Positions 3,256 to 34,217 of a stretch of DNA of 38,494 nucleotides are shown here, one piece after another; within the stretch, counting starts at the first letter, position 1, and every line of letters begins with the position of its first letter. The translations under genes and the position numbers were made by a program. The DNA comes from a virus. The DNA lies in IMG/VR virus record IMGVR_UViG_3300005253_000243, positions 1 through 38,494 of that record. One strand, given 5' to 3'. The notes under the pieces were generated by a model. That model made no database searches and was not told the DNA's origin. It saw only the letters and a list, made by a program, of their open reading frames with translations.

Positions 3256-3394
3256 ACAGCTTGCGGAGTCGTACCCCGACTGGCGACGCTACCACAAGAC
3301 GCCTATGGAGGCGGCAGTCGAGATTGGTCTGTTAGACGAAGACGATCTGGCTGTCGAGGAAATGGGCGGGGAGTTGAATTTCAATGACGACTGA
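3239..3394 (+). CDS. Small acidic protein, 51 aa
   Basis: Short open frame starting MQNLIKQLAESYPDW and ending GGELNFNDD. It overlaps the upstream gene by 17 nt and the primase start by 11 nt, filling the gap between them exactly. It has an acidic second half. Its place directly before primase suggests co-expression with the replisome; function unknown. Confidence 0.6.
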   Translation: MQNLIKQLAESYPDWRRYHKTPMEAAVEIGLLDEDDLAVEEMGGELNFNDD

Positions 3395-7024: not shown

Positions 7025-7379
7025 TTTAGACGGGTTTAAGCTCGTCAATGACGAGTATCTTGCGACGAACGACCAAGTTACTCGCGCTCTTGAAAATGCC
7101 TTCGAGCAAGGCTCGCAGGGGTGGGGCGTTAGACCAGAGGTTGCGATATTCCTGTCGCTGGTAAGCCAGCTTCGGGTGCAGATTACACTCGCGGACGTTG
7201 CGCGTTATGCGCAGAACCAGCTCAAGGGCGAGCAGATGGCGCACGGGCGTACGAAGAAACGCCGCGACAAAGACCTCGGCGATCTAAACATCGAGCTGTT
7301 GCAGACTAAGGCAGCGTTAGACGCGGCGCGGGCCGTAAAAGGGCCGCTGTGTGAGCAGACGGTCGTACTTGACAAGTAG
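7008..7379 (+). CDS. Hypothetical protein, 123 aa
   Basis: The start at MLKLSDLDG has GAGGAGATTGAG just upstream. The protein is soluble and probably helical, with a basic patch (HGRTKKRRDKD) in the middle that could bind nucleic acid. Its last codons overlap the -35 of the promoter at 7369. Function unknown. Confidence 0.65.
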   Translation: MLKLSDLDGFKLVNDEYLATNDQVTRALENAFEQGSQGWGVRPEVAIFLSLVSQLRVQITLADVARYAQNQLKGEQMAHGRTKKRRDKDLGDLNIELLQTKAALDAARAVKGPLCEQTVVLDK

Positions 7380-7397
7380 CGAAAAATCGGCTATACT
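7369..7397 (+). promoter_or_regulatory. Strong sigma70 promoter for polymerase operon
   Basis: Consensus TTGACA (7369-7374), a 17-bp spacer and TATACT (7392-7397), starting inside the end of the previous gene. The -10 region and leader (ATCGGCTATACT through AGAGAGGAA) match those at 2411-2440, so the promoter and ribosome site were probably duplicated as a unit. It should drive the DNA polymerase operon. Confidence 0.85.
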
Positions 7398-7744: not shown

Positions 7745-7935
7745 TGGTTAGAGATACACAAGTACGCACTCATGCCCAGCGAGAGTTGGTAGAGTTGCTG
7801 GTCGATATTAAAGGCATAGACGATGCTGGTACTATACAGAGCATCATTGAGAGCCGGCTTCGCGCCCTTGACTCCGACAAACGGCGTCCGGTAATAAGTA
7901 AACGAACAGCGTGTAATGCTATACTTCGACTTTGA
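7744..7935 (+). CDS. Hypothetical protein, 63 aa
   Basis: It starts on the last base of the previous stop (TAATG) and overlaps the DNA polymerase start by 20 nt. The protein looks helical and charged; no domain recognised. Confidence 0.55.
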   Translation: MVRDTQVRTHAQRELVELLVDIKGIDDAGTIQSIIESRLRALDSDKRRPVISKRTACNAILRL

Positions 7936-9817
7936 AACGACGAACCGCAGTAAAGGCTCCGCGCTCGACTTACGGAATCGCATACTGATGGTTGCGTGGT
8001 GCGAAGACGACGGGCCGATGTACAGCTACGCTGGTGACATTATGAAATGCCCGGCATTTTGGAGCACTTTAGAGAGGTCTGCATCAGCCTGTGCGCACTA
8101 CGCCAAGTTTGAAATGCACTGGCTCAAGCGCCTCGGTTTCGACATAGACAGCAAGAAGTGGCACGATACGATGTTGGCTGAGAAGATTCTGCTTGGCAAC
8201 ATTCCTAAGAAGGTGAATTTAGGCGATGTGGCTGACCGCTACGGCTACCGTACGAAAGACCCGCTTATAGACAGTCTGATGAAGGCAGGTGTATGCCCCT
8301 CGGAAATGCCGCAAGACCTTCTAATGCGGCGCTGCAAGCGCGACGTGTCGATCATGCGCCACATTATGAAGCAGCAGCGCAAGCTGCTCATAAAGCAGGA
8401 GCAGGTACACCTGTACCGTAATCGCTGCGACTTCGAGGTCATACTGACGCACATCGAGGCCGAGGGCATGCTGTTAGACAAGGATGTCGTGCAGAAGCAT
8501 TACGAGGCGAAGGTTCGTGAGCTGGCCGTTATTACGAAAGAATTAGACGAGCTGACCGGCGGGATCAACATGAACAGTCCCGACCAGAAGGCGCACTATC
8601 TATATGGAAAACTCAAATTTCCAGAAATTCGCTCAGCCACCGGGAAAATTAGGAGAAATAAGCCTTCAAAGCAGTTCCCGAAAGGCCGTCCGAAAACAGA
8701 CGCAAATACGCTAACGTGGCTAATGACGCAAGCGAAGACAGAGAAACAGAAATGCTTTGTCGAGCTGTCTAAAAAGTACTCGAAGTTGCACGCAGCCGTG
8801 TCGAAAAATTTGGAGTTCTTTACGGGGGTATGTCGGGAGTATGACGCGCGGTTTTTTGCAACATTCAACCAGACGATAGCTGCCACGCACCGTCTAACGA
8901 GTTCAGGCATACCACTGGCGTTTAAGATGTTCGAGGGCAAAGAGAAGTCAGTACAGTTTCAGAACATGCCCCGCGAGTTCAAGGACTGCTTTTGTGCGCC
9001 GCCGGGTTACAAGGTAGTCGAACTAGACTATCCGCAGCTCGAGTTTCGCGTCGGAGTATTTCTAGGGCAGGACAAGCAGGGTATGAAGGATATACTTGAC
9101 CCGAACTTCGACGCGCATCTATTTAGTGCGTCCGAGATTTTCGGATTAAGTTATACTCGACTGCTCTCTGATTACAGAGGCGACCGAGGAGAAGTAATAC
9201 AAAAGCAAGCGAAAGAGCTTAGACAGCGCTCGAAGCCATACACGTTCAAGCCGTTCTACGGTGGCACGAAAGGCACGCCCGGCGAGGAGAGATACTACGC
9301 AGCGTTCCGCAAGCGGTACGCAGGCGTTCACGCCGAGCAGGAGAACTGGATAGCCGAGGTAGCACGGACGGGCAGGCTCATTACACCGTGGGGTATGCGC
9401 TTCACATGGCGCACGTACGTAGACAAGCGCGGCGTACTGATGAACCGGGCGAACTTTAAGCCGGTCGGCCCTGCCATATCGAACTACCCGGTGCAGAACC
9501 TTGCGACGGCAGAGATTGTACCTATAGCTATCGTGGCGCTGTACAAGCGCTGCAAGGCCGAGAAATTAGACGTGAAGTTTGTCAACACGGTGCATGATAG
9601 CGTGGTCTGTTATATTGGAGAAGGTCTTAAAAATTATGTAGCGTTCAAGCGTGCCGCAGAGCGGGCGTTCACGACAGCAGTATATGAACACTTAAGCATT
9701 TTTTACAACATCGAATTTAACGTGCCTCTCGGTGTTGAAATGGTCACAGGCGACCGCTGGGGTGAGGGCACGGAAACCAAGTACGACGATGTTGATAATT
9801 GGAGTGAAGAGACATGA
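7916..9817 (+). CDS. Family A DNA polymerase with 3'-5' exonuclease
   Basis: Replicative polymerase of the T7/PolA type, 633 residues. The N-terminal DEDD exonuclease has DFE at 5-7, a region AHYAKFEMHW at about 60-69 and CKRDVSIM at about 140-147. Polymerase motif A is ELDYPQLEFR (Asp371). Motif B has Arg436, Lys440, Phe444 and Tyr448. Motif C is VHDSV (His560, Asp561, Ser562), where most family members have Glu at the Ser position. No 5' nuclease domain is present; that activity is a separate gene at 10951. The stop overlaps the SSB-like gene by ATGA. Confidence 0.95.
   Translation: MLYFDFETTNRSKGSALDLRNRILMVAWCEDDGPMYSYAGDIMKCPAFWSTLERSASACAHYAKFEMHWLKRLGFDIDSKKWHDTMLAEKILLGNIPKKVNLGDVADRYGYRTKDPLIDSLMKAGVCPSEMPQDLLMRRCKRDVSIMRHIMKQQRKLLIKQEQVHLYRNRCDFEVILTHIEAEGMLLDKDVVQKHYEAKVRELAVITKELDELTGGINMNSPDQKAHYLYGKLKFPEIRSATGKIRRNKPSKQFPKGRPKTDANTLTWLMTQAKTEKQKCFVELSKKYSKLHAAVSKNLEFFTGVCREYDARFFATFNQTIAATHRLTSSGIPLAFKMFEGKEKSVQFQNMPREFKDCFCAPPGYKVVELDYPQLEFRVGVFLGQDKQGMKDILDPNFDAHLFSASEIFGLSYTRLLSDYRGDRGEVIQKQAKELRQRSKPYTFKPFYGGTKGTPGEERYYAAFRKRYAGVHAEQENWIAEVARTGRLITPWGMRFTWRTYVDKRGVLMNRANFKPVGPAISNYPVQNLATAEIVPIAIVALYKRCKAEKLDVKFVNTVHDSVVCYIGEGLKNYVAFKRAAERAFTTAVYEHLSIFYNIEFNVPLGVEMVTGDRWGEGTETKYDDVDNWSEET
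8607..8629 (+). repeat. 23-bp direct repeat, copy in polymerase gene
   Basis: A 23-bp stretch beginning GAAAACTCAAATTTCCAG is identical to 10764-10786. Here it encodes the KLKFPEI part of DNA polymerase, so this is probably the source copy. It contains AATTT-CCAG-AAATT inverted arms. Confidence 0.9.
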
Positions 9818-10386
9818 GTAGGAAAAAAGGTACAGTTACAGCGGCAGCACGGAGCCAGTACGGCTACTTCGTGCAGTTGCAAGAGACTGACGACTTCTAC
9901 TATAACACGAAGTTTGAGCCGCCTTGCGGCGTCGGCGACGTGGTAGGAATCGCATACGAAGACAAAGGCAAAGGTCGAGGCAACGTGACGAAAATCAAGT
10001 TGCTAGAATCTAACGGCCCAGGTTTTCAAAAGAAAGCGCCAGCTAAGCGCGAAGGCGCTGGCGGCGGTGGTGGCTATAACGACCCCGCTAGACAGGATAG
10101 CATTATCTTCCAGTCAAGCCGCAAAGACGCACTGGTATTCATTGATCTACTGCTACGCAACGAGGCATTTGCTATCAAAGGCAAGGCCGACGCCAAGGCA
10201 GTTCAGATCAGCGAACTGCTTACGAAAGTTACGGCGAAATTCTTTGCTGATGCCGCTGATCCCCGCAACTCGGAAGTTCTTAAGGGCGCAGAAGAAGACG
10301 CCAAGGAAGAGAACGAGTGGGAAGACGGCGGTGAAGAAGCTGCCGGAAAGGACGAGTGGGACGGCGAAGAGGATTGGGACGATTGA
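9814..10386 (+). CDS. Single-stranded DNA-binding protein-like
   Basis: 190 residues: an N-terminal beta-rich part of about 1-65 consistent with an OB fold, a Gly-rich basic linker at about 70-90, a second domain, and a very acidic Trp-containing tail ending DEEDWDD-like (EWDGEEDWDD). Acidic tails of this kind are typical of T7 gp2.5 and other SSBs, where they contact replication partners. It directly follows the polymerase, ATGA-coupled. Assignment rests on layout and context; no exact family match was recognised. Confidence 0.65.
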   Translation: MSRKKGTVTAAARSQYGYFVQLQETDDFYYNTKFEPPCGVGDVVGIAYEDKGKGRGNVTKIKLLESNGPGFQKKAPAKREGAGGGGGYNDPARQDSIIFQSSRKDALVFIDLLLRNEAFAIKGKADAKAVQISELLTKVTAKFFADAADPRNSEVLKGAEEDAKEENEWEDGGEEAAGKDEWDGEEDWDD

Positions 10387-10397
10387 AGTAACCCTTA

Positions 10398-10466
10398 GTG
10401 TGGGGTTGCCCTCTCCCCGTCAAGTGAGACGGGCAGCGCTAGGCGCTGTGGCAACCCCGCACGCTT
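10398..10466 (+). ncRNA. Three-way-junction RNA element
   Basis: P1 pairs GTGTGGGGTTGCC (10398-10410) with GGCAACCCCGCAC (10450-10462), 13 bp with one G-U. Inside are P2, CCCGTC (10416-10421) with GACGGG (10428-10433), and P3, CAGCGC (10434-10439) with GCGCTG (10443-10448). A CUCUC single strand joins P1 to P2. GCTTTT follows P1. It fills the gap between the SSB-like gene and the next gene. It could be an elaborate terminator, an mRNA stabiliser or a regulatory RNA; no known family recognised. Confidence 0.7.
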
Positions 10467-10483
10467 TTAACAGGAGATAGGAC

Positions 10484-10765
10484 ATGAAAGACTGGCAACA
10501 GAGAGCAATAGACGAGCAAGCCGAGTTAGACGGGCGCGGACAAAAGTTGTTCGACTTCGTCGGAGCAGAGGGCGGCGCGTTCGATAGACTGGAAAAAGAC
10601 GACCGCACGATGCTCGTGCTTCAGTTGGGGCACATGCAGGCTTATAACGAGGCGTTGATGCTTCGGATAAGCCACTTTGAGGACGAGGAGGACGACTTGC
10701 CGTCTGACCCGAATGAAGAGTCGCCCTTTGACGAGGCTTGTAGCCCGGCTAAAGAGCAGAGCTGA
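10484..10765 (+). CDS. Hypothetical conserved phage protein, 93 aa
   Basis: It has a strong CAGGAGATAG ribosome site. The N-terminal DWQQRAIDEQAELDGRGQKL resembles a small helical family common in phages (QxRVIxEKxELDxKxxKL). The rest is helical with an acidic tail (FEDEEDDLPSDPNEE). The stop overlaps the start of the 23-bp repeat. Function unknown. Confidence 0.7.
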   Translation: MKDWQQRAIDEQAELDGRGQKLFDFVGAEGGAFDRLEKDDRTMLVLQLGHMQAYNEALMLRISHFEDEEDDLPSDPNEESPFDEACSPAKEQS

Positions 10766-10786
10766 AAACTCAAATTTCCAGAAATT
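10764..10786 (+). repeat. 23-bp direct repeat, intergenic copy
   Basis: Identical over 23 bp to 8607-8629 in the polymerase gene. It spans the last bases of the preceding stop and the short gap before the next gene. It lies 48 bp upstream of another self-derived segment (10835-10899). Confidence 0.9.
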
Positions 10787-10801: not shown

Positions 10802-10954
10802 ATGATTTGTAAAAGATGCAGCGCCAAACACCGTCACGCTTCCCGATTAGACGGGGGGTCGTCGTCTACTGACTCCCACCCACCAATCGAGACGGCCTGT
10901 GGTCGAGTTCGTCCCGTTTGTAGACGAGTACGGGCTAAGGAAATGTCGGTATGA
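10802..10954 (+). CDS. Small Cys-rich protein, 50 aa, partly built from a duplicated segment
   Basis: The frame starts MICKRCSAKHRH and ends RAKEMSV, with Cys at 3, 6, 33 and 40 that could form a zinc site. GGAGACGA precedes the ATG, and the stop overlaps the exonuclease start as ATGA, which supports translation. About 22 of its 50 codons come from the 65-bp inverted duplicate of 15681-15745, read on the opposite strand to that gene. It may be a recently assembled gene or an intact old one that donated the segment. Function unknown. Confidence 0.5.
   Translation: MICKRCSAKHRHASRLDGGSSSTDSHPPIETACGRVRPVCRRVRAKEMSV
10835..10899. repeat. 65-bp inverted repeat, copy A
   Basis: It matches the reverse complement of 15681-15745 at 64 of 65 positions. 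The one difference gives TTAGAC here and TTAGAT in copy B. It lies within the coding frame of the 50-aa Cys-rich protein. Confidence 0.95.
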
Positions 10955-15054: not shown

Positions 15055-15887
15055 GAGTTTATGGCGCAACGAGAGGGAAGCACATCCCACGCAGCAAGGC
15101 TCGTCTAACAGCGGAGCTGTTGCTCCGGCTGGGTGGACAGAGTATCAGTAGACAGGATAACCTGCCTATTGACGCCGAGCTGTTGATACAGTGGGGCGGG
15201 ACAGTTACGCCAGCGCTCATGGGTGCATACAAGCGCCGAGTGCCGTTCATCATACTCAACTCAGGGTACTTCGATGCAACGCGCGGGAGACGGTTTAGTA
15301 TCTCGATCAATGGGTTCCACGGCATCAGTATGTACGTCGATGGTCTGTTAGACAGGCCCGCCCGGGCACATCCGAAAATCAAGCCGTGGCGCAAGGACGG
15401 CGAGTTCGTCCTGATCTTGGGGCAAAAGCCCCCTATCTATGAGATATTGGGGCTGCAAATGGAGCCGTGGCTACGTAGGACAGCCCAGAGGGCCGCTGAG
15501 GCGTTCAGGCGACCGGCACTGATCCGTCCGCATCCCTTCCTTCCCGGCCTCCGGCAGAGGAGCTTACAGGCAGTCCTAGAGGACGGTATCTATGCTGCCG
15601 TGACCCTATCCAGCAATGCGTCAGTGGCGACGACGCTGGCTGGCGTGCGCACTTTGGCCCTGCACCCCACCTGCCCCGCGCAGGCCGTCTCGATTGGTGG
15701 GTGGGAGTCAGTAGACGACGACCCCCCATCTAATCGGGAAGCGTGGGTGCAGAGCCTCGCCCAACGAGAGTTTGACGAGTTCGCCCGGGTTGAATTAGAC
15801 AAGGCGGCAGCCTTCATCGAGGAAGTGTACCCGGCCGCGCAGGAGCATGCTAACGCAGGACAGATATATGTCAAGGGAGTGAAGTAA
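15051..15887 (+). CDS. Glycosyltransferase-like protein (paralogue 1)
   Basis: 278-residue protein homologous to the one at 18106: both have VPFIILxxxY / IPFIILEDPYW, a VLILGQKPP / VIIFGQKPDDY core and a NREAW / DREAW motif before a helical end. The layout resembles phage proteins of GT-B or capsule-transfer type, but no catalytic set was recognised. Residues 211-232 are encoded by the 65-bp repeat and form a segment about 10 residues longer than in the paralogue. Substrate unknown; it may modify a glycan or small molecule. Confidence 0.55.
   Translation: MRVYGATRGKHIPRSKARLTAELLLRLGGQSISRQDNLPIDAELLIQWGGTVTPALMGAYKRRVPFIILNSGYFDATRGRRFSISINGFHGISMYVDGLLDRPARAHPKIKPWRKDGEFVLILGQKPPIYEILGLQMEPWLRRTAQRAAEAFRRPALIRPHPFLPGLRQRSLQAVLEDGIYAAVTLSSNASVATTLAGVRTLALHPTCPAQAVSIGGWESVDDDPPSNREAWVQSLAQREFDEFARVELDKAAAFIEEVYPAAQEHANAGQIYVKGVK
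15681..15745. repeat. 65-bp inverted repeat, copy B
   Basis: Reverse complement of 10835-10899 with one mismatch. It encodes QAVSIGGWESVDDDPPSNRE in paralogue 1. The mismatch replaces a GTCTAA hexamer by ATCTAA and is synonymous here (Pro codon). Confidence 0.95.
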
Positions 15888-32117: not shown

Positions 32118-33203
32118 TTAAGTAATCAGTCCTAAGTTGACCAGCGCGGCGTGAACGCCTGCGGCTGTCACAGCGACGCCTGTCTGTTTTGCGATGGGTG
32201 CTGTGTTGTAAAACCCGACATTGCCAACGACTCTTAACGAATTTCCCTGAATCTGCCCTGTAAGAGTCAAGTCGCCTGTATTTAAGTTGAGTGTCATTCG
32301 TGTGACTGTACTAGGGTCACGATCTTGCCACTGGAAGACTTGCGAGCTAGGAATGTACCGCACTAAAGCAGTAAGTGTTGAGTCTGTGAGATACTGTATA
32401 TCTTGCGCTGAAGTAGCCGTATTACGAAACTTGAGCGTCGTGTTCAACATAGACACTTCAGGTGCGGTTGTGAATACCCAAGCCCCTGCAATACTCTCAG
32501 CGACATTCCTGGCAACGAGGTTCGCTCCGGTGATCCCGCCGTAACTTGTGGCTGTCAGTGCGCCCACCACATCTACAGAGGTTGCGACGGCTCTAATCAG
32601 ATCAACAACTGTACCAGTCCGAGTTATGCGAAGCACATTAGCGCCTACCCCCAAAGCGTCTGTCTTAGTTTGTAAGTATAAATCCCCTATTGAGGTAGTC
32701 CAACGCCAAAACTTTTCGTCAACAGGACCATCAGTTTCATTGAAATCGAAGACCGGCTGTGTAGATGATAGTGTTAGGGCACCTGCGACATCTAGTTTGC
32801 TTGTTGGAACCGCTATTCCGATCCCAACGTCCCCGGCAGAATCAATCCTTACAGCTTCGCTGTTAGCACCTGTAGAAAATACTATCTCCCCCGCTGCATA
32901 ATCAGTAGCAAGTTGCATTATGTCATTACTAGAACTTGCCATGCCCCAAAATCCAACCCTGTTTGTCAGATTTCCACGATAAAGTTCTACCAGAGTCGCT
33001 ACTGCTTGGTCTGTTGCAGCGTTTGAATCTGACAATCTTATTGTTGGGACTGTGCTCTGTATATGTAGGTTTTTTTGTGGGCTTGCTGTTCCTATCCCCA
33101 CATTGCCAGTAAAGGTAGTAATACCTGAAAAGGTATTCTCGCCAGTGAATATATTATCAGCGGCGGTGAACCCTCGGGGGGCGTCATGTCGTTGTACTAT
33201 CAT
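32118..33203 (-). CDS. Fibre protein (head or tail), 361 aa
   Basis: Beta-rich fibre with repeated GNVGIGTASPQKNLHI and GDVGIGIAVPTSKLDV units at about 34-49 and 124-139, LTATSYGGITGANL, and a C-terminal trimerisation-like end (NVGFYNTAPIAKQTG...ALVNLGLIT). The position directly after the capsid gene is unusual for a tail fibre and suggests a head fibre or decoration. AAAGGGG precedes the ATG. Confidence 0.7.
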   Translation of the reverse strand: MIVQRHDAPRGFTAADNIFTGENTFSGITTFTGNVGIGTASPQKNLHIQSTVPTIRLSDSNAATDQAVATLVELYRGNLTNRVGFWGMASSSNDIMQLATDYAAGEIVFSTGANSEAVRIDSAGDVGIGIAVPTSKLDVAGALTLSSTQPVFDFNETDGPVDEKFWRWTTSIGDLYLQTKTDALGVGANVLRITRTGTVVDLIRAVATSVDVVGALTATSYGGITGANLVARNVAESIAGAWVFTTAPEVSMLNTTLKFRNTATSAQDIQYLTDSTLTALVRYIPSSQVFQWQDRDPSTVTRMTLNLNTGDLTLTGQIQGNSLRVVGNVGFYNTAPIAKQTGVAVTAAGVHAALVNLGLIT

Positions 33204-33226
33204 AACACCCCTTTAAGAATAAGGAT

Positions 33227-33250
33227 GAGGGGAGGTACTGACCTCCCCTC
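33227..33250 (-). terminator. Terminator after the capsid gene
   Basis: GAGGGGAGGT and ACCTCCCCTC form a perfect 10-bp stem with a 4-nt loop, followed in the leftward direction by a T-rich stretch (ATCCTTATTCTT). It lies 7 nt after the capsid stop, a common place to limit read-through and keep capsid mRNA abundant. Confidence 0.7.
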
Positions 33251-33257
33251 AAGTGGC

Positions 33258-34217
33258 TTACGCCGCTGGAACCATTACAGCTCTGCAACCGCGCCCAGCC
33301 TCGCCGGAGACATCGCCCCGGATAGTCTGAACACCGTAGATCGCATCGGCAACCAGGAGGGTGCCGAGTGCTTCTAGCTTATACTGCTCCTGAACGCGAG
33401 GCGTCAGTTGCTCAGCCAGAACGAGCGAGTCGCGCTGGAAGAACAGAGCCGGTCTGTACGAGGTACAGTTCGAGCTATCTACAGTTTCTAGGTTGCTTGA
33501 GACAAAAATCTCAAAGCCATAAAGGTCACCAACGAGACCATTTCTGATCGAGTTTTGCTGACCCACTTCGCCAACGAACGCTTGCTCTGTGTAACGAGTG
33601 TTACCGAGCATACGCTTTTTCTCCACGGGCGGAATGACCAAAAAGCGGTCGCGCCCGGGGACGTTTTCGTCGTCGAAGTCCATGACGATTTCTCGTACGC
33701 CAGCGTCGGAAATGGCAGAGCCATTACCAGCGCCAAGGTTCGACCAAGTCGTAGTACCGTCGCCAATTAAGGCAGCCGCATACTGATCTGAGGCAGAACC
33801 CCAGCCGTTCGCAAGCTGAATCAGACTGGTGTCAGTCTGCTTAGCGAGCGCATAGCCAGCGTCGTCGGTGAAGAACCGACGTAGGGAGGGTAGTGCTTGT
33901 ACCTCAGCCATGTCATCAAGAATCCGAGCATAGTGATAATGCTTGTCAAGCGAGATAGACTTATGGGTCGTATCAGCGTACGCAATGACGGTGATAGCGT
34001 TCGACGCTGTCTTGAGGTTCGCGTCGCTTCGTCCCGGGAACGGTATGCGGATCGTGTTACCGATCTTACCGACGTGCGGAATTAGCGAAACGAGACCAGC
34101 TACAACCAAGTTAGCCTTGTATGCAGCGACAGTTTCGAGTGCCCATATCTGAGGGATAAAGTCAGCCGCGTCCGTAATGTCAATTGCATTGACTAAGTCA
34201 AAGTATGACGAGGACAT
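33258..34217 (-). CDS. Major capsid protein, 319 aa
   Basis: Forms the head shell. The N-terminal FDLVNAIDITDAADFIPQIW, then IPHVGKIGNTIRIPFPG, KSISLDKHYHYARILDDMA and DRFLVIPPVEKKRML, is the pattern of phage HK97-fold coat proteins. It ends TIRGDVSGEAGRGCRAVMV. AGGGG precedes the ATG; the scaffold is upstream and a strong terminator downstream. Confidence 0.85.
   Translation of the reverse strand: MSSSYFDLVNAIDITDAADFIPQIWALETVAAYKANLVVAGLVSLIPHVGKIGNTIRIPFPGRSDANLKTASNAITVIAYADTTHKSISLDKHYHYARILDDMAEVQALPSLRRFFTDDAGYALAKQTDTSLIQLANGWGSASDQYAAALIGDGTTTWSNLGAGNGSAISDAGVREIVMDFDDENVPGRDRFLVIPPVEKKRMLGNTRYTEQAFVGEVGQQNSIRNGLVGDLYGFEIFVSSNLETVDSSNCTSYRPALFFQRDSLVLAEQLTPRVQEQYKLEALGTLLVADAIYGVQTIRGDVSGEAGRGCRAVMVPAA

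Follow-up and report, generated by a model that had tools for sequence, protein, structure and literature searches.

Genes around the element

The sequence analyzed here (hereafter the window) is the whole of the IMG/VR virus record IMGVR_UViG_3300005253_000243, 38,494 nucleotides or 38.5 kb in length. Its family A DNA polymerase (7916-9817, forward strand; PF00476, 7e-31; phrog_17, 3.5e-81) shares 35-37% identity with its counterparts in Vibrio phage VpV262 and Stenotrophomonas phage StenR_269, and judged from this similarity the source is a Zobellviridae-like podovirus. Two sigma-70-like sites with identical hexamers (TTGACA-17-TATACT, 11/12) are found at 2393-2421 and 7369-7397. Both are likely early promoters, and the strong site at 7369-7397 could start the transcript that carries the polymerase gene and the gene behind it. 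The major capsid protein (33258-34217) has many close relatives, with identity reaching 96% (IMGVR_UViG_3300005663_000379) compared with 69% for the best polymerase match; most of the capsid-matching contigs are short fragments. Right behind the capsid gene, on the reverse strand, lies a perfect 11-bp hairpin with a T-rich tail (TGAGGGGAGGTCAGTACCTCCCCTCA, 33226-33251), a candidate for an ordinary terminator.

The gene that follows the polymerase (9814-10386, forward strand) overlaps the polymerase stop and ends with its own UGA at 10384-10386. No Pfam or PHROG match was found for it. Its predicted structure has a five-stranded OB-type barrel, a helical domain, and an acidic tail (pLDDT approximately 73-91 by block); Foldseek gave weak matches to OB domains, including that of RPA (E 9e-3), and none in the PDB at E ≤ 0.001. 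The gene adjoins the polymerase gene in most relatives. Position, acidic tail, and predicted barrel support its identification as a single-stranded DNA-binding protein (SSB) gene, in agreement with the "SSB-like" label of a preliminary description of this locus.

Behind the SSB stop codon come an 11-nt spacer (AGTAACCCTTA, 10387-10397, forward strand) containing a conserved flank (AGT..CC), the structured element described below, and the same-strand genes for a small cargo protein with a crAss001_48 domain (10484-10765; PF21825, 1.3e-13) and a 5'-3' exonuclease.

A branched structure in the intergenic region

The element is a three-way junction of 65 nt (10398-10462, forward strand) that is clearly intergenic. 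Its outer helix, P1, pairs a 5' arm (GTGTGGGGTTGCC, 10398-10410) with a 3' arm (GGCAACCCCGCAC, 10450-10462) over 13 bp, of which 12 are Watson-Crick pairs and one is U·G (10401·10459). The 39-nt interior holds two 6-bp hairpins: P2 (CCCGTC-AAGTGA-GACGGG, 10416-10433; 10416-10421 pairs with 10428-10433 around the 6-nt loop AAGTGA) and P3 (CAGCGC-TAG-GCGCTG, 10434-10448; 10434-10439 pairs with 10443-10448 around the 3-nt loop TAG). P1 and P2 are joined by the linker CTCTC, P2 directly abuts P3, and a single T connects P3 back to P1. Pairing was computed at probabilities of 0.99-1.0 in P1, 0.98-1.0 in P3, and 0.77-1.0 in P2. A short T-run, GCTTTT, follows on the same strand (10463-10468).

This branched structure is well beyond chance. 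In its context the element has a minimum free energy (MFE) of -45.3 kcal/mol, compared with -29.7 ± 3.4 for shuffled sequences (z approximately -4.6). When folded by itself, the 65-nt element reaches a z of -5.9, with no equal among 2000 shuffles, and the 39-nt interior by itself is equalled by 14 of 2000 shuffles. Among 15,366 80-nt windows covering both strands of the 38.5-kb record, the element ranks second in stability. The architecture given in the preliminary description, i.e., a 13-bp helix enclosing two perfect hairpins with 6- and 3-nt loops before GCTTTT, was therefore borne out by folding and shuffling. Its start at 10398 is correct, and its end at 10466 clips the tail, which runs to 10468.

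Both strands can fold at this site (-45 and -43.5), and the site belongs to the replication module, as might be expected of a DNA-level signal such as a cruciform, a single-strand origin, or a recombination site. We consider such a signal extremely unlikely: the GC skew turns at approximately 22 kb, not at the element; the T-run lies on the forward-strand side while the opposite-strand fold is followed by TAA, and this polarity, like the place behind a stop codon, fits RNA; and a hairpin with a T-run is kept in the homologous loci described below.

Comparisons with sequence collections gave no counterpart. No Rfam 15 family matched the element at the gathering threshold, and the only match was a chance one to a snoRNA (E 0.42) on the other strand. 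Nucleotide searches of phage and plasmid sequences with the element and its neighbors were likewise without a match. We also considered P2 and P3 as copies of another part of the genome and found no second copy in the window.

The homologous site in related phages

Single-protein scans of IMG/VR with the SSB and with the polymerase gave no match. Searches with the capsid gene and with an alignment of two polymerase sequences led to the closer relatives: L159 (IMGVR_UViG_3300028610_000345; polymerase 69%, SSB 48-49% identical to those of the window) and the more distant G011/L155 (polymerase 57-58%, SSB 39-43%). All three share the DNA polymerase-SSB gene order. Past the SSB stop codon, L159 has a GC hairpin and six T (GTACCCCTACTGTGTGGGCGGCTTTCACAGCGCCCACCTTTTTTG), the hairpin being a plain one of 7 bp (GUGGGCG...CGCCCAC, then CUUUUUU). 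At the same place L155 has an 11-bp hairpin (AGUGUG...CGCACU) followed by two to three T (CTGAGTGCCCTAGTGTGTGTGGACAGGGACGTCCTCCGCACTTTAAC), which is no stronger than its shuffles (z 0.0 to -0.85). The spacer between stop codon and stem is 11 nt in the window, 13 nt in L159, and 11-12 nt in L155, and the 5' flank AGT..CC, then TGTG.GG, is common to all three. P2 and P3 are absent from the homologous site of both near relatives.

The site is thus homologous and terminator-like, with the outer stem kept as a stem and the two inner hairpins present in the window only. Because L159 and the more distant L155 both have a simple hairpin, the forked form is most simply explained as a derived addition in the window's lineage. 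The preliminary description had held that a terminator does not need such an architecture; the homologues reveal a terminator-like site underneath it. It had also named a lack of compensatory changes in homologues as grounds for refutation, and for the inner hairpins this applies in full: they are missing altogether from both near relatives, which leaves the three-way junction without a partner for covariation.

The same comparison bears on the suggestion that this phage encodes a new structured RNA. If the junction were the recognized feature of a new cis-regulatory or protein-binding RNA, such as a site of SSB autoregulation, this would account for two perfect inner hairpins that are improbable by the interior shuffles given above. 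We nevertheless judge this very improbable, given that P2 and P3 occur in no relative, that the homologous loci carry simple hairpins and T-runs at the same site and behind the same flank, and that the Rfam and nucleotide searches were negative. Riboswitch-type RNAs likewise have three helices meeting at one junction; unlike them, the element lies behind its gene and has neither conserved junction or loop nucleotides nor junction homologues. The ribosome-binding site of the next gene also speaks against control of this kind. This AGGAG (10472-10476, forward strand) starts 10 nt past P1, outside the junction. It is unpaired in the MFE structure, and by pair probabilities its GAG is mostly unpaired while the A and first G are partly paired (0.64-0.75). 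Concealment of this site by the junction was thus not seen in the MFE structure. What stands of the earlier proposal is the neighborhood, an mRNA-end element where the replication genes end, and not the new RNA class.

A polymerase alignment gave a wider group of 80 loci, only 28-40% identical to the window. Of the 60 loci in which the SSB end could be read, 15 show a hairpin at least as stable as -9 kcal/mol ahead of a T-run no more than approximately 130 nt from that end; the frequency at random places is 16%. A terminator after the SSB gene is thus not clearly enriched and is not a rule across the whole group. Some distant relatives do have a hairpin, a T-run, and a ribosome site directly after the SSB gene, namely, L004 (GGCGGGGTAACACCCGCC-TTTTT) and L055 (GCCCCGCACTACGCGGGGC-TTTTTT). 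Forked terminators are not a habit of the group either. Across approximately 180 related loci with 5563 TTTT runs, we counted 132 three-way cases with stems of at least 6 pairs, compared with 125 in shuffled sequences, which again does not favor a new RNA class. None of the other forked cases approaches the window element in stability (-45.1; next -31.0). Two other forked folds were set aside: one in the distant relative L156 (3555-3650) has a z of +0.5, and one after the SSB gene of L064 seems to fall within the reading frame that follows, judging by eye from a peptide common to L064 and L067.

A candidate terminator and the genes behind it

Intrinsic terminators have a stable, GC-rich stem and, directly after it, a U-rich tract of approximately 8 nt. 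The element has such a stem, as the 13-bp GC-rich P1 lies directly upstream of the expected end point. Its tail (GCTTTTAAC) has four T, with two other bases between the T-run and the stem, and its T score is 1.11, compared with 2.54 for L159 and more than 4 for L004 and L055. In sharing a position after the SSB gene, a GC-rich stem, a T-run, the 5' flank, and an 11-13-nt spacer, the element resembles the candidate intrinsic terminator at the L159 site. It differs in its longer stem, on which two hairpins sit (65 nt in total), and in having only the four T, two bases off the stem. With such a tail the element may terminate poorly.

In our preferred reading, the element is probably a lineage-specific branched intrinsic (Rho-independent) terminator or attenuator that closes the polymerase-SSB segment. 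Folding of successively longer prefixes gave the order P2, P3, and then P1, which closes at approximately 10461, just ahead of the T-run; in this model P1 closes at the time expected of an intrinsic terminator with a long loop folded away. Once RNA polymerase has passed the SSB gene, the inner hairpins P2 and P3 would fold first, shortening the effective loop and bringing the arms of P1 together. P1 would then close as its 3' arm emerges, while GCTTTT is being transcribed, and a share of the polymerases would halt. The short T-run and the start of the stem only 11 nt past the SSB stop codon make a leaky stop probable, and the cargo and exonuclease genes would still be transcribed at a lower level. 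In Escherichia coli, ribosomes partly repress terminators that lie less than approximately 27 nt from a stop codon (PMC4824070). The tR2 constructs of that study, terminators weakened by translation, have stems that start within the same distance as here and, unlike the element, are not forked.

Standard terminator finders are not built for such a shape. TransTermHP accepts loops of 3-13 nt and a total length of up to 59 nt (limits quoted in PMC12207403), and the element, with 65 nt and a 39-nt interior, falls outside them. A consensus terminator scan of the window did not list the element, and the same scan did not list the T-run hairpin of L159. Because of its length and branched interior, we describe the structure as working like a terminator rather than as a canonical one. 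Forked terminators of this size would escape the limits of such programs, and an ordinary site, judged by structure alone, can be mistaken for a new RNA class.

A very stable closed stem followed by a weak T-run would also suit an mRNA 3'-end protector that brings about no real termination, with the forked stem blocking 3'-5' exonucleases and so preserving the polymerase-SSB portion of a longer transcript after cleavage or Rho-dependent termination farther downstream. Stable, long terminator stems have been linked to upstream mRNA stability, with longer and more stable stems guarding the upstream message (PMC11696848), and protection would account for stability having grown while the T-run shrank. 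This reading is rather unlikely, as the closest relative, L159, has a classic stem with six T in the same place, and no processing site was identified. Under the terminator reading, the stable stem would shield the 3' end of the SSB message as well, likely as a by-product.

A competing pairing in the spacer raises the question of sensitivity to translation. Immediately past the SSB stop codon, the segment GUAACCCU (10388-10395) could form 8 bp with the 5' arm of P1 (10402-10409; -11.8 kcal/mol). In a translation-sensitive attenuator, a ribosome at the stop codon would cover GUAACCCU and let P1 form; with no ribosome there, P1 would be delayed and transcription would go on. The 5' hairpin persists to approximately 10455 in prefix folding, pairing as good was found in only 3 of 5000 flank shuffles (128 of 5000 genomic 11-mers), both relatives retain the CC of the flank, and an alternative of 7 pairs can form in L159. 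At equilibrium, however, P1 is favored by 11 kcal/mol (-45.3 compared with -34.3), the G-rich arm pairs readily with any C-run (2.6% of genomic 11-mers), the alternative pairing is weak in L155, and E. coli ribosomes near a stop codon reduce rather than raise termination (PMC4824070). The competing hairpin is therefore only suggestive of translation sensitivity, and we consider such an attenuator improbable. It is quite improbable that the element is a ribosome-sensing three-way-junction terminator, in which translation of the SSB gene would set transcription of the downstream operon through the contested P1 5' arm.

Returning to the leaky terminator, the stretch behind it differs among the genomes. 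The cargo gene is missing at this point in L159, and another small ORF takes its place in L155, so the stretch at 10484-10765 is an insertion point for cargo. A motif follows the T-run immediately in L159 (GAAAACTGAATTTTTCC); a similar one is found in the window only past the cargo gene (GAAAACTCAAATTTCC, at 10764) and in L155 past the other small ORF (at 3333). The motif abuts the T-run in L159 and lies beyond the inserts elsewhere, and the terminator-like site is thus also the edge of the insertion point. T-runs are shorter where cargo is present, i.e., four T in the window and three in L155 (TTT), compared with six in L159 (TTTTTT). This would fit a need for readthrough, which in three genomes is a hint only. 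If the element does terminate with four T, its forked, very stable stem could compensate for the poor T-run; alternatively, the locus could be an example of phages tuning readthrough into cargo genes.

Several repeats were also observed. An exact 23-nt direct repeat (GAAAACTCAAATTTCCAGAAATT) occurs inside the polymerase gene (8607-8629) and between genes (10764-10786); the intergenic copy has counterparts at L159 6498 and L155 3333, and the repeat is possibly a promoter or a protein site. A 29-nt inverted repeat (86%) links the polymerase gene (9319-9347) with a tail-fibre gene (32135-32163). A 65-nt inverted repeat with 98% identity has its copies 4.8 kb apart (10835-10899 and 15681-15745). 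The copy at 10835 falls in a small ORF of zinc-ribbon-like type (10802-10954), whose frame it seems to have shifted, as the L159 peptide MTCKTCNG...WVPFVDEHGKSR is split over two frames at this ORF in the window. This repeat may have arisen by templated insertion or may be an error of assembly.
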